This document shows positions 322 through 33,189 of a stretch of 33,488 bases of DNA, one piece after another. Each line of letters begins with the position of its first letter. Position 1 is the first letter of the stretch. This stretch comes from a virus. The DNA lies in the IMG/VR virus record IMGVR_UViG_3300048924_000213, positions 1 to 33,488 of that record. One strand, given 5' to 3'. The notes beneath the pieces are model-generated. The model searched no databases and was not told the origin of the DNA. It saw only the letters and a program-made list of their open reading frames with translations. The position numbers and the translations under genes were made by a program.

Positions 322-1167
322 TTATGTCTTAGGTCTGAGCGCCTCTATTGCTTTAACGAGAACTTCCAGTTCACCTTTCTCCAATTTTTTTGACTCCAAG
401 ATGTCTAAAGTTTGTCCATCGATTAGCTTTTCAGCATTTGATTTTAATGCAAACTTTTCAACAAAACCTAAGACTTCTTCAGGCTTGGCTTTTTCTATTA
501 TTAACTTCAATATTAATAAGTTTTCCTCTCTTGATCTCTTTAGGGACTCATAATATCTAAATTCATCCATTGTAGATCTATACTGCTTAAGAAAATAAAA
601 TGAAATAAATTCAATAAAAAACAATATCCCAAATTTTGGAGCGTAATGTAATAACTCTGATTTAAAATCCGATTGAATATTATCAATTGTTACTTGCGCA
701 TAAAAAAACAGCAAACCAGCAACAGCGAAGGTGACCCCCATCATCAAATAAACTACACCTCGATTAAATATTGATTTTGATAAATCCTCCGACGACTTAC
801 AAAGATGTGCCATGTAGGCTATCGGACTATCCTTCACCCCTTTAGGGGGTAAAAATTTAGAAATATCAATAGGTTTAAAACGAAAAATAGTTAGAAATGC
901 ATCCTGAAATGGTGATGTTTTACTAATTATTGTATATGCCAATGGCACTAGCATTACCGCAACAGACGAAAAGAGAATGCTCAAATAAGATATATCCATT
1001 GTGCCGTATTTACTTTTCGAAGTAAAAATATCAACCAACGATGTATATCTAAAGATTATAAAGGAAATAAGAAACCACATGAAAAGTTCAAAAACATTAA
1101 CCTTCCCCATGATATACTTTTCATAATAGGTATATTCAGTTATCTCATCACTCACTTTCATCACCAT
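322..1167 (-). CDS. Four-TM membrane protein of unknown function, cargo in the lysogeny operon
   Basis: A 281-residue protein I do not recognise. Hydrophobic segments at about residues 26-42, 59-81, 137-158 and 177-194 predict four membrane spans. They are followed by a soluble, charged, probably helical C-terminal domain (about 198-281) rich in Lys, Glu and Leu. The gene is AT-rich compared with the phage core. Its start overlaps the end of int by 20 bases (second possible ATG six bases later, at 1161), so translation is probably coupled and the gene should be expressed in the lysogen with cI and int. P2 has no gene here. Position and expression suggest an exclusion, immunity or abortive-infection role, but this is inference; no enzymatic motif is visible. 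Confidence 0.8.
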   Translation of the reverse strand: MVMKVSDEITEYTYYEKYIMGKVNVFELFMWFLISFIIFRYTSLVDIFTSKSKYGTMDISYLSILFSSVAVMLVPLAYTIISKTSPFQDAFLTIFRFKPIDISKFLPPKGVKDSPIAYMAHLCKSSEDLSKSIFNRGVVYLMMGVTFAVAGLLFFYAQVTIDNIQSDFKSELLHYAPKFGILFFIEFISFYFLKQYRSTMDEFRYYESLKRSREENLLILKLIIEKAKPEEVLGFVEKFALKSNAEKLIDGQTLDILESKKLEKGELEVLVKAIEALRPKT

Positions 1168-4947: not shown

Positions 4948-7158
4948 TTGGCTATTCAGTTTGCTTACCCGTGGAATACTCCGGGGTCTGCATTAGCCAG
5001 CCCATATCTCACCTATGAGCAACAGCACCGCCGCGACAGAATGTTCGCGGCTTTGCTGCATGCGCGTAAGGCGCTTGCCCATCAGCCAGAGTGTGTGCGA
5101 TTTGAGGTTAACCGCACGGCTACCGTACTGGAGCAAACGCAGGGCAGTGAACGAGCCAATGCCTTTTTAATCAGCTTTTGCAAAAAGGCATTGCCGCGTC
5201 TCGAACTGGTCGCCAAAAAATATGAATCAACCGGCATCAGAAGCGACGTATCTGCCGCTGTTTTCGGCGGGCATTTTGATACTCAGCTAATGCAATATCT
5301 GGCATCACGCATTATGAATATGATTGCCAGATTTAACCGACTCCCGGATATGTCGCGCGCCGATATCGATCTGCTGGCCGGTGACATTGCGAATTTCATC
5401 CGCTCGGAGCTGGCACATATCGACGACGCCGGGTCTGGTGAACTCAAAACGCTTTATACCTGGTACATGCACGCCAGTTTTATCTCGCAACAATTCAATG
5501 TCACCCCTCCTCACTGGGATCGAGTAACAAAGAAATTCTTCGACAAAAATGACATTGCTCCCGCTGTGATCCGGATGTTTACCGAAACATGGTGGCGAGG
5601 CCGTCTGCGTCGTGTCGCGTCTGCGTGGCGCGAACATCTGCAAATTGCTGTCGGTAATGTCAGTAAGAAAAAACATGTCTATGCGAGTAAGAACTGCGTA
5701 ACTGACTGGCGCGAGCAAAAGCGTCGAACGCGTGAGTTTCTCAAGGGGCTTGAGCTTGAGGATGAAGAAGGCAACCGGATTAGCCTGATTGAAAAATACG
5801 ACGGCTCGATCGCCAATCCTGCGATCCGCCGTTGTGAGCTCATGACGCGCATTCGAGGCTTCGAAAATATCTGCAATGACCTCGGCTATGTCGGCGAATT
5901 TTACACACTCACTGCACCATCCAAATATCACGCCACAACCAAAGCGGGATACCGTAACAGCAAATGGAAAGGAGCAAACCCGTCAGATACGCAGGGTTAT
6001 CTCACCAGTCTCTGGGCGCGCATCAGGGCGAAACTGCATCGGGAAGACATCCGCATTTTCGGCATACGTGTCGCCGAACCGCATCATGACGCAACCCCTC
6101 ACTGGCACATGCTCATGTTTATGTTGCCAGAAGATGTGGAGCGGGTTCGCCGCGTCATTCGTGATTACGCGTGGCAGGAAGATAGCCACGAGCTGAAAAG
6201 CGACAAAGCCAAAAAAGCGCGCTTTCACGCCGAAGCGATTGACCCGGAGAAAGGCAGTGCGACCGGCTATGTTGCTAAATACATCTCGAAAAATATCGAC
6301 GGTTACGCTCTTGATGACGAGACCGATGACGAGAGCGGTGAGTTACTCAAAGAGACTGCACCCGCTGTTTCTGCGTGGGCGGCTCGCTGGCATATTCGTC
6401 AGTTTCAATTTATCGGCGGTGCGCCGGTAACGGTTTACCGTGAGTTGCGTCGTCTTGCTGATACAGAAATAGCGCACGGCCTGAGCGTTGAATTTGCTGC
6501 TGTGCATGATGCCGCTGATGCTGGCGATTGGGCCGGTTACGTTAATGCTCAAGGTGGCCCATTTGTTCGCCGTGACGATCTGCAGGTGCGCACGCTGTAC
6601 GAACCGCGTGATGAGTTCAACCAGTATGGAGAGGAAATGGTTTGCATCCGTGGTGTATACGATTCTGAGGTCGGAGCTGGCACCCCAATTTTGACTCGCC
6701 TGACGCAGTGGAAGATTGTTCCCAAGCGTGCCGTTGATTTGGCCGTTGACGTTAAGGGCGCGACCGCGCCCTCTCGGAGTTCTGTCAATAACTGTACGGA
6801 GGAGGAAAATGCCCTACCCAAACTTGATCTAACCAAACCACTAAGTCGGCATGAAAGGCGGCAGCTTACAAACCGACTCAGGGTGAAAAAGCCAGTTCAG
6901 CATCGAAAATTTACTCACGGTAGAGCTGAAAAGAGTGAAGCAATAGAGAGGATAGCCGAAGAGGTACATCTAACCACCGGCATAACCATAAGCCGAGGCG
7001 AAGCTCTGCACCTAATGGCCGGAGGAACAAGCGTCATTGACGGTCATTGGCGAAGAGGAACGGCTAAAGGCGAACTCTTCTCTGCAAGCCCATCTTATGG
7101 TGTAAAAGCCGAAAGAATTCTTAGGCGCGTCTACGCTCTCGCCGAAAAATCGAGGTAA
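4948..7158 (+). CDS. A: Replication initiation endonuclease A (rolling circle)
   Basis: 736 residues (P2 A is 761), Phage_GPA family. It nicks one strand at the phage origin, stays bound to the 5' end through tyrosine and starts rolling-circle replication with host Rep helicase. Visible signatures are the HUH-type metal motif ATPHWHM (His385, His387) and the catalytic pair Tyr441 and Tyr445 in GYVAKYISKNID, matching P2 Tyr450/Tyr454. The reading frame begins with TTG at 4948 behind GGGGGG; an ATG five bases earlier is out of frame. The C-terminal 100 residues, after a basic stretch (LSRHERRQLTNRLRVKK), are less conserved and more AT-rich. The P2 ori lies inside A; I could not place it here. 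Confidence 0.96.
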   Translation: MAIQFAYPWNTPGSALASPYLTYEQQHRRDRMFAALLHARKALAHQPECVRFEVNRTATVLEQTQGSERANAFLISFCKKALPRLELVAKKYESTGIRSDVSAAVFGGHFDTQLMQYLASRIMNMIARFNRLPDMSRADIDLLAGDIANFIRSELAHIDDAGSGELKTLYTWYMHASFISQQFNVTPPHWDRVTKKFFDKNDIAPAVIRMFTETWWRGRLRRVASAWREHLQIAVGNVSKKKHVYASKNCVTDWREQKRRTREFLKGLELEDEEGNRISLIEKYDGSIANPAIRRCELMTRIRGFENICNDLGYVGEFYTLTAPSKYHATTKAGYRNSKWKGANPSDTQGYLTSLWARIRAKLHREDIRIFGIRVAEPHHDATPHWHMLMFMLPEDVERVRRVIRDYAWQEDSHELKSDKAKKARFHAEAIDPEKGSATGYVAKYISKNIDGYALDDETDDESGELLKETAPAVSAWAARWHIRQFQFIGGAPVTVYRELRRLADTEIAHGLSVEFAAVHDAADAGDWAGYVNAQGGPFVRRDDLQVRTLYEPRDEFNQYGEEMVCIRGVYDSEVGAGTPILTRLTQWKIVPKRAVDLAVDVKGATAPSRSSVNNCTEEENALPKLDLTKPLSRHERRQLTNRLRVKKPVQHRKFTHGRAEKSEAIERIAEEVHLTTGITISRGEALHLMAGGTSVIDGHWRRGTAKGELFSASPSYGVKAERILRRVYALAEKSR

Positions 7159-7243
7159 AAATAAACACTAATTTTCATCGATATCATGTACATACATAAC
7201 ATTAAACACGATCTTTTACTTCACATTTTCAATATAAACATGA

Positions 7244-7263
7244 TACTGTACAAACATACAGTA
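7244..7263 (+). promoter_or_regulatory. LexA box upstream of a 60-aa ORF
   Basis: TACTGTACAAACATACAGTA keeps both CTG and CAG half-sites with exactly 10 bases between and flanking TA on both sides, very close to the LexA consensus. It ends 22 bases before the ATG at 7286. In phage 186 a LexA-controlled promoter at the same map position drives the antirepressor gene tum, which makes that phage inducible by DNA damage. Confidence 0.85.
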
Positions 7264-7285
7264 AAAATCCTTTGGGAGGGAATTC

Positions 7286-7468
7286 ATGGTTGGCGAGCAA
7301 CTCAGCCGAACGCAGCAAAAATGGGCATGTGTGCAATTCATCGCGGAGGTCTCGTTGATCGCGAACTGCAAACCATCGGATCTCAAGCTTGCGCTCACCC
7401 TCATTGCTGACCTTGCGCACAGTGAGAACAATGAACCAGAGGAAAACGTCTTTTATAAGGTCGAGTAA
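7286..7468 (+). CDS. Small SOS-controlled protein of unknown function, candidate antirepressor
   Basis: 60 residues, read from ATG 7286 behind a strong GGGAGGG site, just downstream of the LexA box. The sequence has an N-terminal helix (RTQQKWACVQFIAEV), a conserved-looking NCKPSDLKLALTLIADLAH helix and an acidic tail. I do not recognise it. It is shorter than 186 Tum and I see no DinI-like region. Map position after A, LexA control and a repressor without visible self-cleavage together suggest it may inactivate the CI-like repressor. That role is inference; it could also be a conserved SOS-regulated protein with another task. Confidence 0.7.
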   Translation: MVGEQLSRTQQKWACVQFIAEVSLIANCKPSDLKLALTLIADLAHSENNEPEENVFYKVE

Positions 7469-7742: not shown

Positions 7743-7761
7743 GGCGTGGCGGGGAAAGCAT
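7743..7761. other. cos: Phage cohesive-end site (cos), P2/186 type
   Basis: GGCGTGGCGGGGAAAGCAT lies where the P2/186 cohesive ends belong, after the replication module and before gene Q. It agrees with my memory of the 19-base P2/186 ends, differing from P2 at about two bases and looking like the 186 version. The flank continues TGCGCGC as in those phages. The exact nick positions are taken from the family, not visible here. Terminase M/P would cut here for packaging. Confidence 0.8.
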
Positions 7762-7850: not shown

Positions 7851-9404
7851 ATGATGAAAGGTATAGGGTTGCAAAGCTTTAGAAGTTTTGTCGACAAAAC
7901 GTATGTAGAGCTGAAACCAATCACAGTTTTCGTTGGAAAAAACAGCAGTGGAAAAAGCTCACTTCTTCGAACGTTCCCACTGCTTCGTCAGTCAGTAGAA
8001 GAGAATACCACGGGCCCAATACTGTGGTTTGGGCGCCTTGTTGATTTTGGAGATTTTACAGATGTCCTTTCAAGAAGCTCTGAAAACAATGAAATCACAT
8101 TTAGTTTTTCTCTTTTGCTGGCGCCTGAGTCAATACAAAGATATTCATACTATAGATATAACAGTCTCTCAAAATCTCAAATAGCTATTGACACTGAACT
8201 TACTGTATATTCCAAAGACAAAAAAACGAAAACAAAAACCATAAAAATAATAACTGAAGACACAACTATAATCATTAATCTTGATGATAACGCCAATGTA
8301 AAACTGCAAATAAAATCTAAAGATCGGATTATTGATCGTGAAGGTTTAATAGCACGCAACTTAGGTCAATTTATACCTAACATTCAACTCAAACGTAAAG
8401 ATGAAAGTTCGCCAGCTATTCCAGCATTTTATTACCAGTCAAGAAATGACCGCCCCCTAGAACTATCATTCATCGAATCAGCAACAAAATCTATAAAACC
8501 ATATTTCCATGTTAAAACTGTTATATCCCAAGTTTCAGATACTTTTAAAAAAATAGGATTCGTACCTAAAGATGATGCGCAAACAATTATAAAATTCCTG
8601 TTCAGAGAGCAAAAAACATTTAGTAAAAATTTCGAACATCACAGCACGGAAATAATGGATGATCTTTACCCATCTTTAATTGGTTGGAACATAAACAATT
8701 TAATAGATACAGTGAACTCATCTTTGTCAGAATTTTATAAGAATGTTAAATATATAGCGCCTTTACGAGCCACCTCAGAGAGATTTTATCGATTCCAAGA
8801 TCTTCAAGTAAATGAAATAGATCATACTGGTTCGAACTTGGCAATGCTTCTGAATTCACTAAGGCAAGTAGAAAAAACACGCTTTGAAGAATGGACAAAA
8901 TCAAACTTTGACTTTGTGATTAAAGTTGAACAAACAGGTGCTCATTTTGCTATCCTCATCAACACTGGTGAAGGTAAAGAAAACTATAATATCAGTGACA
9001 TGGGATTTGGTTATTCACAAGTATTGCCAATTGTCACAGCTATTTGGTTGGAAACTGAAAGACGAGTTTTAAATTCTAAAAAACCAATTACATTTATAAT
9101 TGAACAACCCGAATTGCACCTCCATCCATCTTATCAATATAATTTAGCAAAAATATTTGCAAAAGTAATAACTCAAGCAAAAGAGAATAATATTGATTTA
9201 AAGATCATTTTTGAGACCCATAGCCAAACAATGATTGAAGCTTTGGGTGAGTGTATCGAAAACAACATGGGCCTAACCGAAGATGATGTATCTATATTAG
9301 TTTTTGAAAAAAATGAATGTCAGCAGACAGAAGTAAGAAACTCATACTTTGATGATGAAGGATTTCTTCAAAATTGGCCTATTGGATTTTTCTCAGGGAA
9401 TTGA
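7851..9404 (+). CDS. DUF3696/OLD-like ABC-type ATPase, first gene of a putative defence pair
   Basis: 517 residues. Walker A is GKNSSGKSS (about 29-37) inside an SMC/OLD-like N-terminus (LQSFRSFVDKT, then ITVFVGKN). A YIAPLRATSERFYRF segment and an ABC signature-like DMGFGYSQVLP (about 384-394) precede Walker B IIEQPELHLHP (Glu418, Glu421) and an H-loop FETHSQTM. A C-terminal FDDEGFLQNWPIGFF ending is typical of DUF3696 ATPases. The middle (about 90-270) is an insertion domain without recognisable motifs. The next gene starts one base after the stop, so the two proteins are made together. The gene is strongly AT-rich between GC-rich phage genes. OLD, Gabija, PARIS and related systems pair such an ATPase with a TOPRIM nuclease; which one this belongs to is not decided. 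ATG 7854 is an alternative start. Confidence 0.9.
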   Translation: MMKGIGLQSFRSFVDKTYVELKPITVFVGKNSSGKSSLLRTFPLLRQSVEENTTGPILWFGRLVDFGDFTDVLSRSSENNEITFSFSLLLAPESIQRYSYYRYNSLSKSQIAIDTELTVYSKDKKTKTKTIKIITEDTTIIINLDDNANVKLQIKSKDRIIDREGLIARNLGQFIPNIQLKRKDESSPAIPAFYYQSRNDRPLELSFIESATKSIKPYFHVKTVISQVSDTFKKIGFVPKDDAQTIIKFLFREQKTFSKNFEHHSTEIMDDLYPSLIGWNINNLIDTVNSSLSEFYKNVKYIAPLRATSERFYRFQDLQVNEIDHTGSNLAMLLNSLRQVEKTRFEEWTKSNFDFVIKVEQTGAHFAILINTGEGKENYNISDMGFGYSQVLPIVTAIWLETERRVLNSKKPITFIIEQPELHLHPSYQYNLAKIFAKVITQAKENNIDLKIIFETHSQTMIEALGECIENNMGLTEDDVSILVFEKNECQQTEVRNSYFDDEGFLQNWPIGFFSGN

Positions 9405-9405
9405 T

Positions 9406-10518
9406 ATGCTAATTAATATTGAGTCTGTGACACGAGATGATGTTTTGAATGAAAAATTCTCTACTGCTATTGAGAATATACTTCGTTCGTTTGCGGAAAA
9501 TAAGCATTTATTAATAGCTCATAAGGATTTCTTTCACTCAATAATATCTGAAGATAAAGGGATTTTTAGCGCGGCCACAAAAAGTACTGCGAGTGAGGCA
9601 TTAAAGGGGCTTCGTGAGTATAAAGCTGTGCTTGGCTTAGTGTCATTTTACGTTTCAGTTAACTTTAAAATACTTGATAATTCCTTTAAGTGGCTAAGCG
9701 TGGGCGATAACGACAAATTCGAGTGTGGCCCTTTATTTTTCAATGATTCTTCTCAACTACAGAAAACAAAAATTGTCTGTGAAAACCCACTGGACTCTGA
9801 TTTCTTTAACATAATAGCCAAACACTATGCTCAAAATTCTGATCTTTCTCGTTGCGCCATTAATTTCAATCCACTAAATGGCGGTGGCGGGAGCACAAAA
9901 GACATTTTTGACCGAACAGTGAAAAACAACGAAATAACATTTTGTATAGTCGATAATGATAAAATGCATCCTCGAGCACCTTTTGGTGGAACAAGTACGC
10001 ATTTTTTAGGAAGCAAGACTAATAAATCAGGGATGATTAAGATTCTTGATGTCCACGAAATTGAATCATTAGTACCGATTGATACAATTGAGTGCGTTCT
10101 TCAGGAACTAAACCTAATGGGAAGAAAAAAGGCTTCTTTAGATTTCTTCAAAAGATTATGCGAGATTGATGAATCTGCAAAGTTTTACTTTGATCATAAA
10201 AAAGGATTTGATCTTAAAACTGCCTGGGAGCTTGATAATACGCATGGTAATTATTGGCGAAACATTATAAAAAGATTAAAGGTCACTGATGCTTGCGAGT
10301 GCATCAATCTCAAAGAGTGCAAATGCAAACCATCGTGCTTGACTTACGAAGGTTTTGGTGACGGATTGCTTACAAACACCTTAAAATATATACATAAAGG
10401 TAATTTAAGGCAATACAAACCAACGTTGCCCCCACAGCTAAATGACAAATGGCATGATCTAGGAAGAAGTTTTTTTAGCTGGAGCTGTGGACCATACAAA
10501 AGAACAAGAGTTAGCTAA
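9406..10518 (+). CDS. TOPRIM-like protein, second gene of the putative defence pair
   Basis: 370 residues from ATG 9406, one base after the ATPase stop; the in-frame upstream ATG at 9349 is rejected because it lies inside the ATPase gene. Residues about 120-225 follow TOPRIM order: Glu126 in VCENPLDSDFF, a glycine-rich turn (NGGGGS, 158-163), the acidic pair Asp183/Asp185 in FCIVDNDK, and a later acidic helix LDVHEIESLVP (Glu218, Glu220) as in OLD/DUF4435-type nucleases. An N-terminal 110 residues of unknown fold precede it. Near the C-terminus five cysteines fall within 15 residues (297, 299, 305, 307, 311), a probable metal site. Function as the effector nuclease of an ATPase-gated antiphage system is inference; the fold assignment is fairly good but not certain. 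Confidence 0.82.
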   Translation: MLINIESVTRDDVLNEKFSTAIENILRSFAENKHLLIAHKDFFHSIISEDKGIFSAATKSTASEALKGLREYKAVLGLVSFYVSVNFKILDNSFKWLSVGDNDKFECGPLFFNDSSQLQKTKIVCENPLDSDFFNIIAKHYAQNSDLSRCAINFNPLNGGGGSTKDIFDRTVKNNEITFCIVDNDKMHPRAPFGGTSTHFLGSKTNKSGMIKILDVHEIESLVPIDTIECVLQELNLMGRKKASLDFFKRLCEIDESAKFYFDHKKGFDLKTAWELDNTHGNYWRNIIKRLKVTDACECINLKECKCKPSCLTYEGFGDGLLTNTLKYIHKGNLRQYKPTLPPQLNDKWHDLGRSFFSWSCGPYKRTRVS

Positions 10519-32343: not shown

Positions 32344-33189
32344 TCAGAATGGTATATCATCTGAAAAATCAATAGGAGCACCTTGTAACTCATGCTTTAA
32401 CCTGGGCTTTGACAAAATCGCTTCATTTTCAAGTAGTTTATCAATTCCAGCGTCGGTAATCGCATATGCGTAAAACTCATCGCCATTATTGTTATCAATT
32501 TGCAATGAACGCTCAATGAGAGACATACGTTCCAATTTAATTAATTGAACTGTAACGATTTGCTCTTCCATCTCTTTTAAAGACCAGATAATTGAGGATG
32601 AAGATATTCCACCTGGGTACTTTGTATGGGTTTCTAAGCAAGCAGCAAGAACCTTAATTGCCGCCTCATTAAGCTGATATTCATATGGATTTACAATTAC
32701 TTTCTCATTTATGCCAAGAGATATACGGTTTAACGTCCCTTGTGATTTCATCGCTGTGCGCATTTTATGGCACGCAGGGAATAATGCGGCATCGAAATTA
32801 TCATCTGACCTTTGTGAGTCATACTCAGCCAATGTTATACCTAAAAGATCACTTGGCAATTTTAACTCTTCATCTCGGGGTTTTACGATGAAACATCGTT
32901 TAACCCCAATGGCACCAATAAATAAACCCAGTTCAAACAAAACATTATCTCGCACGACATGTTCTTGTTTGCCTCTAGATTCGGTAAGATCATCAGGTTG
33001 AAAAACAAACACAGCAAAATCAGTAGTTGCCGATCTCATTACAAGATCACTTATTGTTGTACTTGATAACCTAAAGTTCCCACTACTCCACGGGGTCACT
33101 TCATAATCATGTTCAAAGTCTGTACTTATAGCTCGTACTACTGACAAACTCTCACTTGATGAAGCTATAAAAATCTTCGGCTTGACCAT
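32344..33189 (-). CDS. TIR-like nucleotide-hydrolase-type protein with C-terminal winged helix, cargo at the old locus
   Basis: 281 residues. The first 130 residues match the TIR-like nucleotide-binding family (PF10137, as in Pycsar/CBASS TIR effectors): KIFIASSSESLSVVRAIS at the start, DFAVFVFQPDD (57-67) and the hallmark VVRDNVLFELGLFIG (78-92), with Glu86 at the NADase glutamate position. Residues about 170-258 look like a winged helix (NEAAIKVLAACLETHTKYP, then QLIKLERMSLIERSL, then YAITDAGIDKLLE), a place for sensing or DNA/partner binding. The gene is AT-rich, leftward, with AGGAG before its ATG, and sits between ogr and attR, the location of P2 old. A standalone NAD-depleting defence protein is the leading idea; activity and trigger are inferred. 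No cyclase or partner gene is nearby. Confidence 0.88.
   Translation of the reverse strand: MVKPKIFIASSSESLSVVRAISTDFEHDYEVTPWSSGNFRLSSTTISDLVMRSATTDFAVFVFQPDDLTESRGKQEHVVRDNVLFELGLFIGAIGVKRCFIVKPRDEELKLPSDLLGITLAEYDSQRSDDNFDAALFPACHKMRTAMKSQGTLNRISLGINEKVIVNPYEYQLNEAAIKVLAACLETHTKYPGGISSSSIIWSLKEMEEQIVTVQLIKLERMSLIERSLQIDNNNGDEFYAYAITDAGIDKLLENEAILSKPRLKHELQGAPIDFSDDIPF

Follow-up and report, generated by a model that had tools for sequence, protein, structure and literature searches.

Within the 33,488-nt stretch of DNA analyzed here (the window), which belongs to a PSP3-like bacteriophage of the P2/186 type, a short open reading frame, tumA, is located after the replication initiator gene gpA and before cos and the portal gene Q, which is the position held by p95-tum in phage 186 (Table 1). 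A LexA box lies 22 bases ahead of its start codon. Both half-sites, TACTGT and ACAGTA, are perfect, and the three mismatches to the 20-base consensus are all central. With up to three mismatches allowed, this box was the sole match in 33.5 kb, and 100 shuffled sequences gave none. When only the core CTGTN8ACAG was required and one mismatch was tolerated, 8 matches occurred in the window versus 9.45 expected; as this is no excess over chance, the evidence rests on the full box. The LexA operator overlaps a putative promoter of layout TTCACA-N18-TACTGT, in which either TACTGT (7244-7249), as the arrangement in 186 would suggest, or GATACT (7242-7247) is the candidate −10 hexamer. In 186, p95 is annotated with an 18-base spacer and a −10 hexamer inside the LexA site. 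A −35-like motif, TT[CT][CA][CA]A, is kept at the same spacing in relatives. A promoter scan also matched the p95-like element, but its score alone is not above chance.

The ORF itself appears to be a genuine gene. Homologues are found at the same place in relatives, and a dN/dS of ~0.036 over the core points to strong constraint at the protein level. An overlapping antisense gene was considered and rejected, as the antisense frames are not kept open in relatives. The initial annotation of this DNA had described a near-consensus LexA box 22 bases upstream of a 60-residue ORF with a strong ribosome site, at the location of the SOS-controlled antirepressor of 186 and in a phage whose CI repressor bears two helix-turn-helix (HTH) domains. 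Each of these observations was confirmed.

Table 1. Features of the SOS-controlled region and other loci discussed in the text (window coordinates).
Feature	Position	Strand	Remarks
281-aa ORF	322-1167	-	Beside int; no match in Pfam or NCBIfam
CI repressor, 283 aa	2188-3039	-	Predicted TumA target; HTH1 ~9-70, HTH2 ~99-160 (Phage_CI_repr type), Phage_CI_C
gpA replication initiator	4948-7158	+	PF05840; left neighbor of the SOS operon
p95-like promoter (putative)	7220-7249	+	−35 TTCACA, 7220-7225; −10 overlaps LexA box
LexA operator TACTGTACAAACATACAGTA	7244-7263	+	Unique in window; core box kept in relatives
Shine-Dalgarno GGGAGGG	7274-7280	+	From sequence; kept in relatives
tumA, 60 codons	7286-7468	+	Two-helix hairpin predicted; putative antirepressor, N-terminal half of the 186 Tum family
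17-bp stem-loop	7509-7551	+	Between tumA and cos; kept, with pair-preserving changes; no T-run
cos core GGCGTGGCGGGGAAAGCAT	7743-7761 (approximate)	+	P2-type by similarity; invariant in close relatives
AAA_15 ATPase, 517 aa, and 370-aa protein	7851-10518	+	ATPase PDC-M55A/NsnB-like (PADLOC)
TIR domain protein, CAP12/Pycsar-type	32344-33189	-	PF10137; near right end

By homology, the ORF is an already known protein, TumA, the stand-alone half of a split Tum and a standard part. It is 85% identical to PSP3 TumA (NCBI: AAN08399.1) over 60/60 residues, with residues 7-44 identical, and a tblastn search of phage records returned ten matches at 85%, PSP3 TumA included. The PSP3 record refers to UV induction of the prophage in its annotation of TumA, which it likens to the 5′ end of 186 tum. 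The relationship to 186 Tum itself is visible only through PHROG and profile comparison. The family phrog_1993 matches the window ORF at 6e-30 and also residues 1-61 of 186 Tum (E 1e-22), while profile-profile comparison of the TumA and 186 Tum groups with hhalign aligned 32 columns (E 2e-5). The ORF and the N-terminal region of 186 Tum are 29% identical by alignment. Plain BLASTP with the ORF retrieved PSP3 TumA but not 186 Tum, and Pfam, NCBIfam, and PADLOC gave no match for it. Given the PHROG and profile matches, the ORF is related to Tum, contrary to the initial annotation, which had seen a different protein unlike either Tum or DinI. With its 60 codons, the ORF lacks the DinI-like C-terminal half of a full-length 186-type Tum, and the DinI family (PF06183) has no match in the ORF or elsewhere in the window. 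Of the Tum-like switch with a novel antirepressor that had been proposed, our results thus support the SOS-controlled antirepressor paired with CI but not its novelty. AlphaFold predicts TumA to form two helices (residues 2-25 and 30-46) followed by a disordered tail, with a pLDDT of 76. A fold search with this model gave no informative match (nothing below E 0.8), the two-helix fold being too simple, and a search by sequence found no solved structure for TumA.

Published work on the two reference phages suggests how the locus would operate. Tum, which is under LexA control, counteracts CI and relieves the repression of pR after UV (PMC7708051), and the 186 record annotates tum, at the same place and with its p95/LexA site, as a protein that "inhibits CI DNA binding". 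For PSP3, a personal communication cited in PMC3121763 attributes the antirepressor activity to the upstream half, TumA. In a lysogen, LexA would hold tumA off; following DNA damage, RecA-driven cleavage of LexA would turn it on. The small helical TumA would then bind the phage's own CI without cleavage, and CI bound in this manner would no longer hold the early promoter, resulting in prophage induction. We consider it highly probable (roughly 90%) that the ORF is tumA, the LexA-repressed antirepressor half of a 186/PSP3-type Tum, and that it induces the prophage by disabling CI. Its antirepressor activity is proposed by analogy with that reported for PSP3 and 186.

To place the window among its relatives, we collected 160 loci from viral contigs, using TumA and the 186 Tum N-terminal region as queries, and 23 further loci from genomes, all but one of which were labelled Enterobacterales. 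The exception (L166) comes from an assembly labelled Chryseobacterium and is a P2-like prophage whose TumA is 93% identical; with all other genome matches in Enterobacterales, contamination is the likely source of this label. The LexA box was kept in all 165 copies examined. Its core is perfect in 80 of 84 loci with TumA (PSP3-type), the other 4 having one mismatch, and in 81/81 loci of the 186 type.

The same loci tie Tum to CI. The window encodes a 186-family CI in the same phage, and the type of Tum equals the type of CI in 143/145 loci. Compared across the two types, identities rise to 97-100% (medians 63-90%) for CII, orf79, orf80, gpA, Q, and P, whereas the maxima for CI and Tum are 36% and 34%. 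For each gene tree, we determined the smallest number of CI-type changes and compared it with the shuffled mean, leaving out the two mismatched loci (L058 and L120). In map order, the values (shuffled means in parentheses) were P 31 (36), Q 27 (36), Tum 1 (40), gpA 24 (47), orf80 30 (44), orf79 32 (41), CII 17 (35), CI 1 (47), and int 1 (41). The trees of Tum, CI, and int therefore each require a single change of CI type, versus 17-32 changes for those of the remaining six genes. Linkage of int is expected because it adjoins cI, whereas tum is ~4 kb from cI, beyond the shuffled genes. On the gpA tree, 17/17 supported independent contrasts agree (p 1.5e-5, L058 and L120 omitted), and 16/17 agree when both are kept.

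Statistically, then, TumA and CI behave as a cognate pair: their persistent pairing amid shuffled genes is the pattern expected of a repressor and its antirepressor, and linkage maintained despite exchange of the surrounding genes constitutes comparative evidence for such a relationship. Distance does not explain the linkage, because the genes between CI and Tum are shuffled, as are Q and P beyond tum. Gene conversion confined to gpA was rejected as a cause, since CII, orf79, orf80, Q, and P are shuffled too; repeated short exchanges are a conceivable but unlikely explanation. The only loci with mismatched Tum and CI types are the contigs L058 and L120. L058 matches L131 at 100% identity on its int/CI/CII side and L057 at 99.9-100% on its gpA/tum/Q side. 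These two contigs are either misassemblies or true natural recombinants, and in the latter case they would test the specificity of TumA.

An alternative reading is that TumB, the DinI-like partner, is needed for full activity, which would make the window's switch crippled and weakly inducible. In 186, a DinI-like half forms part of the single Tum protein, which lends this some weight, as does PSP3, where TumB follows TumA; TumB is missing from the window. We nevertheless regard it as unlikely: of 53 distinct TumAs, 35 lack TumB yet still have the LexA box and an ORF under constraint, and the communication on PSP3 assigns activity to the upstream half. With TumB absent after 35 of the 53, the DinI-like half looks dispensable in the TumA lineage. 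The stand-alone form of TumA is a common one, and the idea of an unknown antirepressor is corrected.

A second alternative concerns the genes downstream. The cos core starts ~280 bases past the tumA stop codon, an interval (~280 bp) that is conserved in close relatives, and the stem-loop in between possibly marks the end of the tumA transcript. Beyond cos lies the AAA_15 ATPase with a 370-aa protein that has no Pfam match, followed by Q (PF04860). LexA could in principle also drive this pair, giving an SOS-armed defense operon led by tumA. The pair is on the same strand as tumA, and no T-tailed terminator was found on the + strand from tumA to the pair. However, the conserved stem-loop and cos intervene, and the two genes travel together elsewhere, in P2-like phages whose gpA differs and in which Tum is not detectable; on contigs that include Q, they lie next to it. 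This places them outside the switch. Moreover, close TumA relatives carry other cargo at this site, including a retron RT-Toprim (L007), an LmuB-like ATPase (L010), and an NsnA-like protein (L011), together with genes that are unassigned in other relatives. We thus find joint control by LexA very unlikely, and TumA was rejected as a member of an AAA_15 operon. The site corresponds to the cos-proximal gpA-gpQ defense hotspot (PMC9122126), and the AAA_15 and 370-aa genes are a candidate two-gene defense system within it. Near the right end of the window, the TIR domain protein is probably a second defense-related cargo gene.

The degree of conservation of TumA counts against an antirepressor. 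Its core is 94% conserved compared with 49-81% for the individual CI domains, which is unusual for the partner of a fast-changing repressor. One might thus suppose that TumA is an SOS-induced protein of other function, such as a modulator of RecA or LexA, with induction proceeding by another route; near-invariance while CI diverges would fit binding to a conserved host protein, but a host target would not demand that TumA segregate with CI type across shuffled genomes, and with antirepressor activity reported for 186 and, by personal communication, for PSP3, we judge this highly improbable.

The domains of CI suggest where TumA may act. The tandem HTH copies of the window CI are 40% identical to each other. 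Among PSP3-type phages, median pairwise identity is 49% for HTH1, 81% for HTH2, and 60% for the C-terminal domain. In L063 and in five of the closest relatives by TumA (93-97% identical), CI lacks HTH1, and its single HTH shares 81-85% identity with the window's HTH2. Being conserved and the sole HTH in close relatives, HTH2 is the part of CI most common to the partners of TumA, which suggests that TumA may bind CI and act through this domain. Conserved DNA recognition by HTH2 would result in the same pattern. Extending this idea, PSP3-type TumA might be an antirepressor of broad range that targets the conserved HTH2 and serves many heteroimmune phages, a proposal that we regard as tentative and somewhat doubtful. 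Were it true, phages with different HTH1 and C-terminal domains would all be served by one nearly invariant TumA, a prophage of this kind undergoing SOS induction would cross-induce others residing in its host cell, and HTH1 would be an add-on that alters immunity while inducibility is retained. Divergence or absence of HTH1 may be the way in which immunity changes in PSP3-type phages. The proposal makes testable predictions regarding the CI domain bound by TumA and cross-induction between heteroimmune P2/186-type prophages.

Among known systems, the window most resembles PSP3, whose TumA is also 60 aa in length, lies after gpA, and has the same type of LexA box and ribosome site. The two differ in tumB, which lies 3 bases downstream of PSP3 tumA and has no counterpart in the window. 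Divergence between the window CI and most PSP3-type CIs is considerable (~43-47% identity overall). With 186, the window shares a LexA-controlled promoter, the position of the gene, a homologous N-terminal region, and the same PHROG; 186 Tum, however, is a fusion of 146 aa whose C-terminal half is DinI-like, and 186 CI has a single HTH rather than two. Other parallels are GfoA/GftA of the Gifsy/Fels-1 prophages and AntC of N15, which are small LexA-controlled antirepressors (PMC3121763). Compared by description only, they are likewise small and LexA-controlled, but involve other proteins and other repressors.
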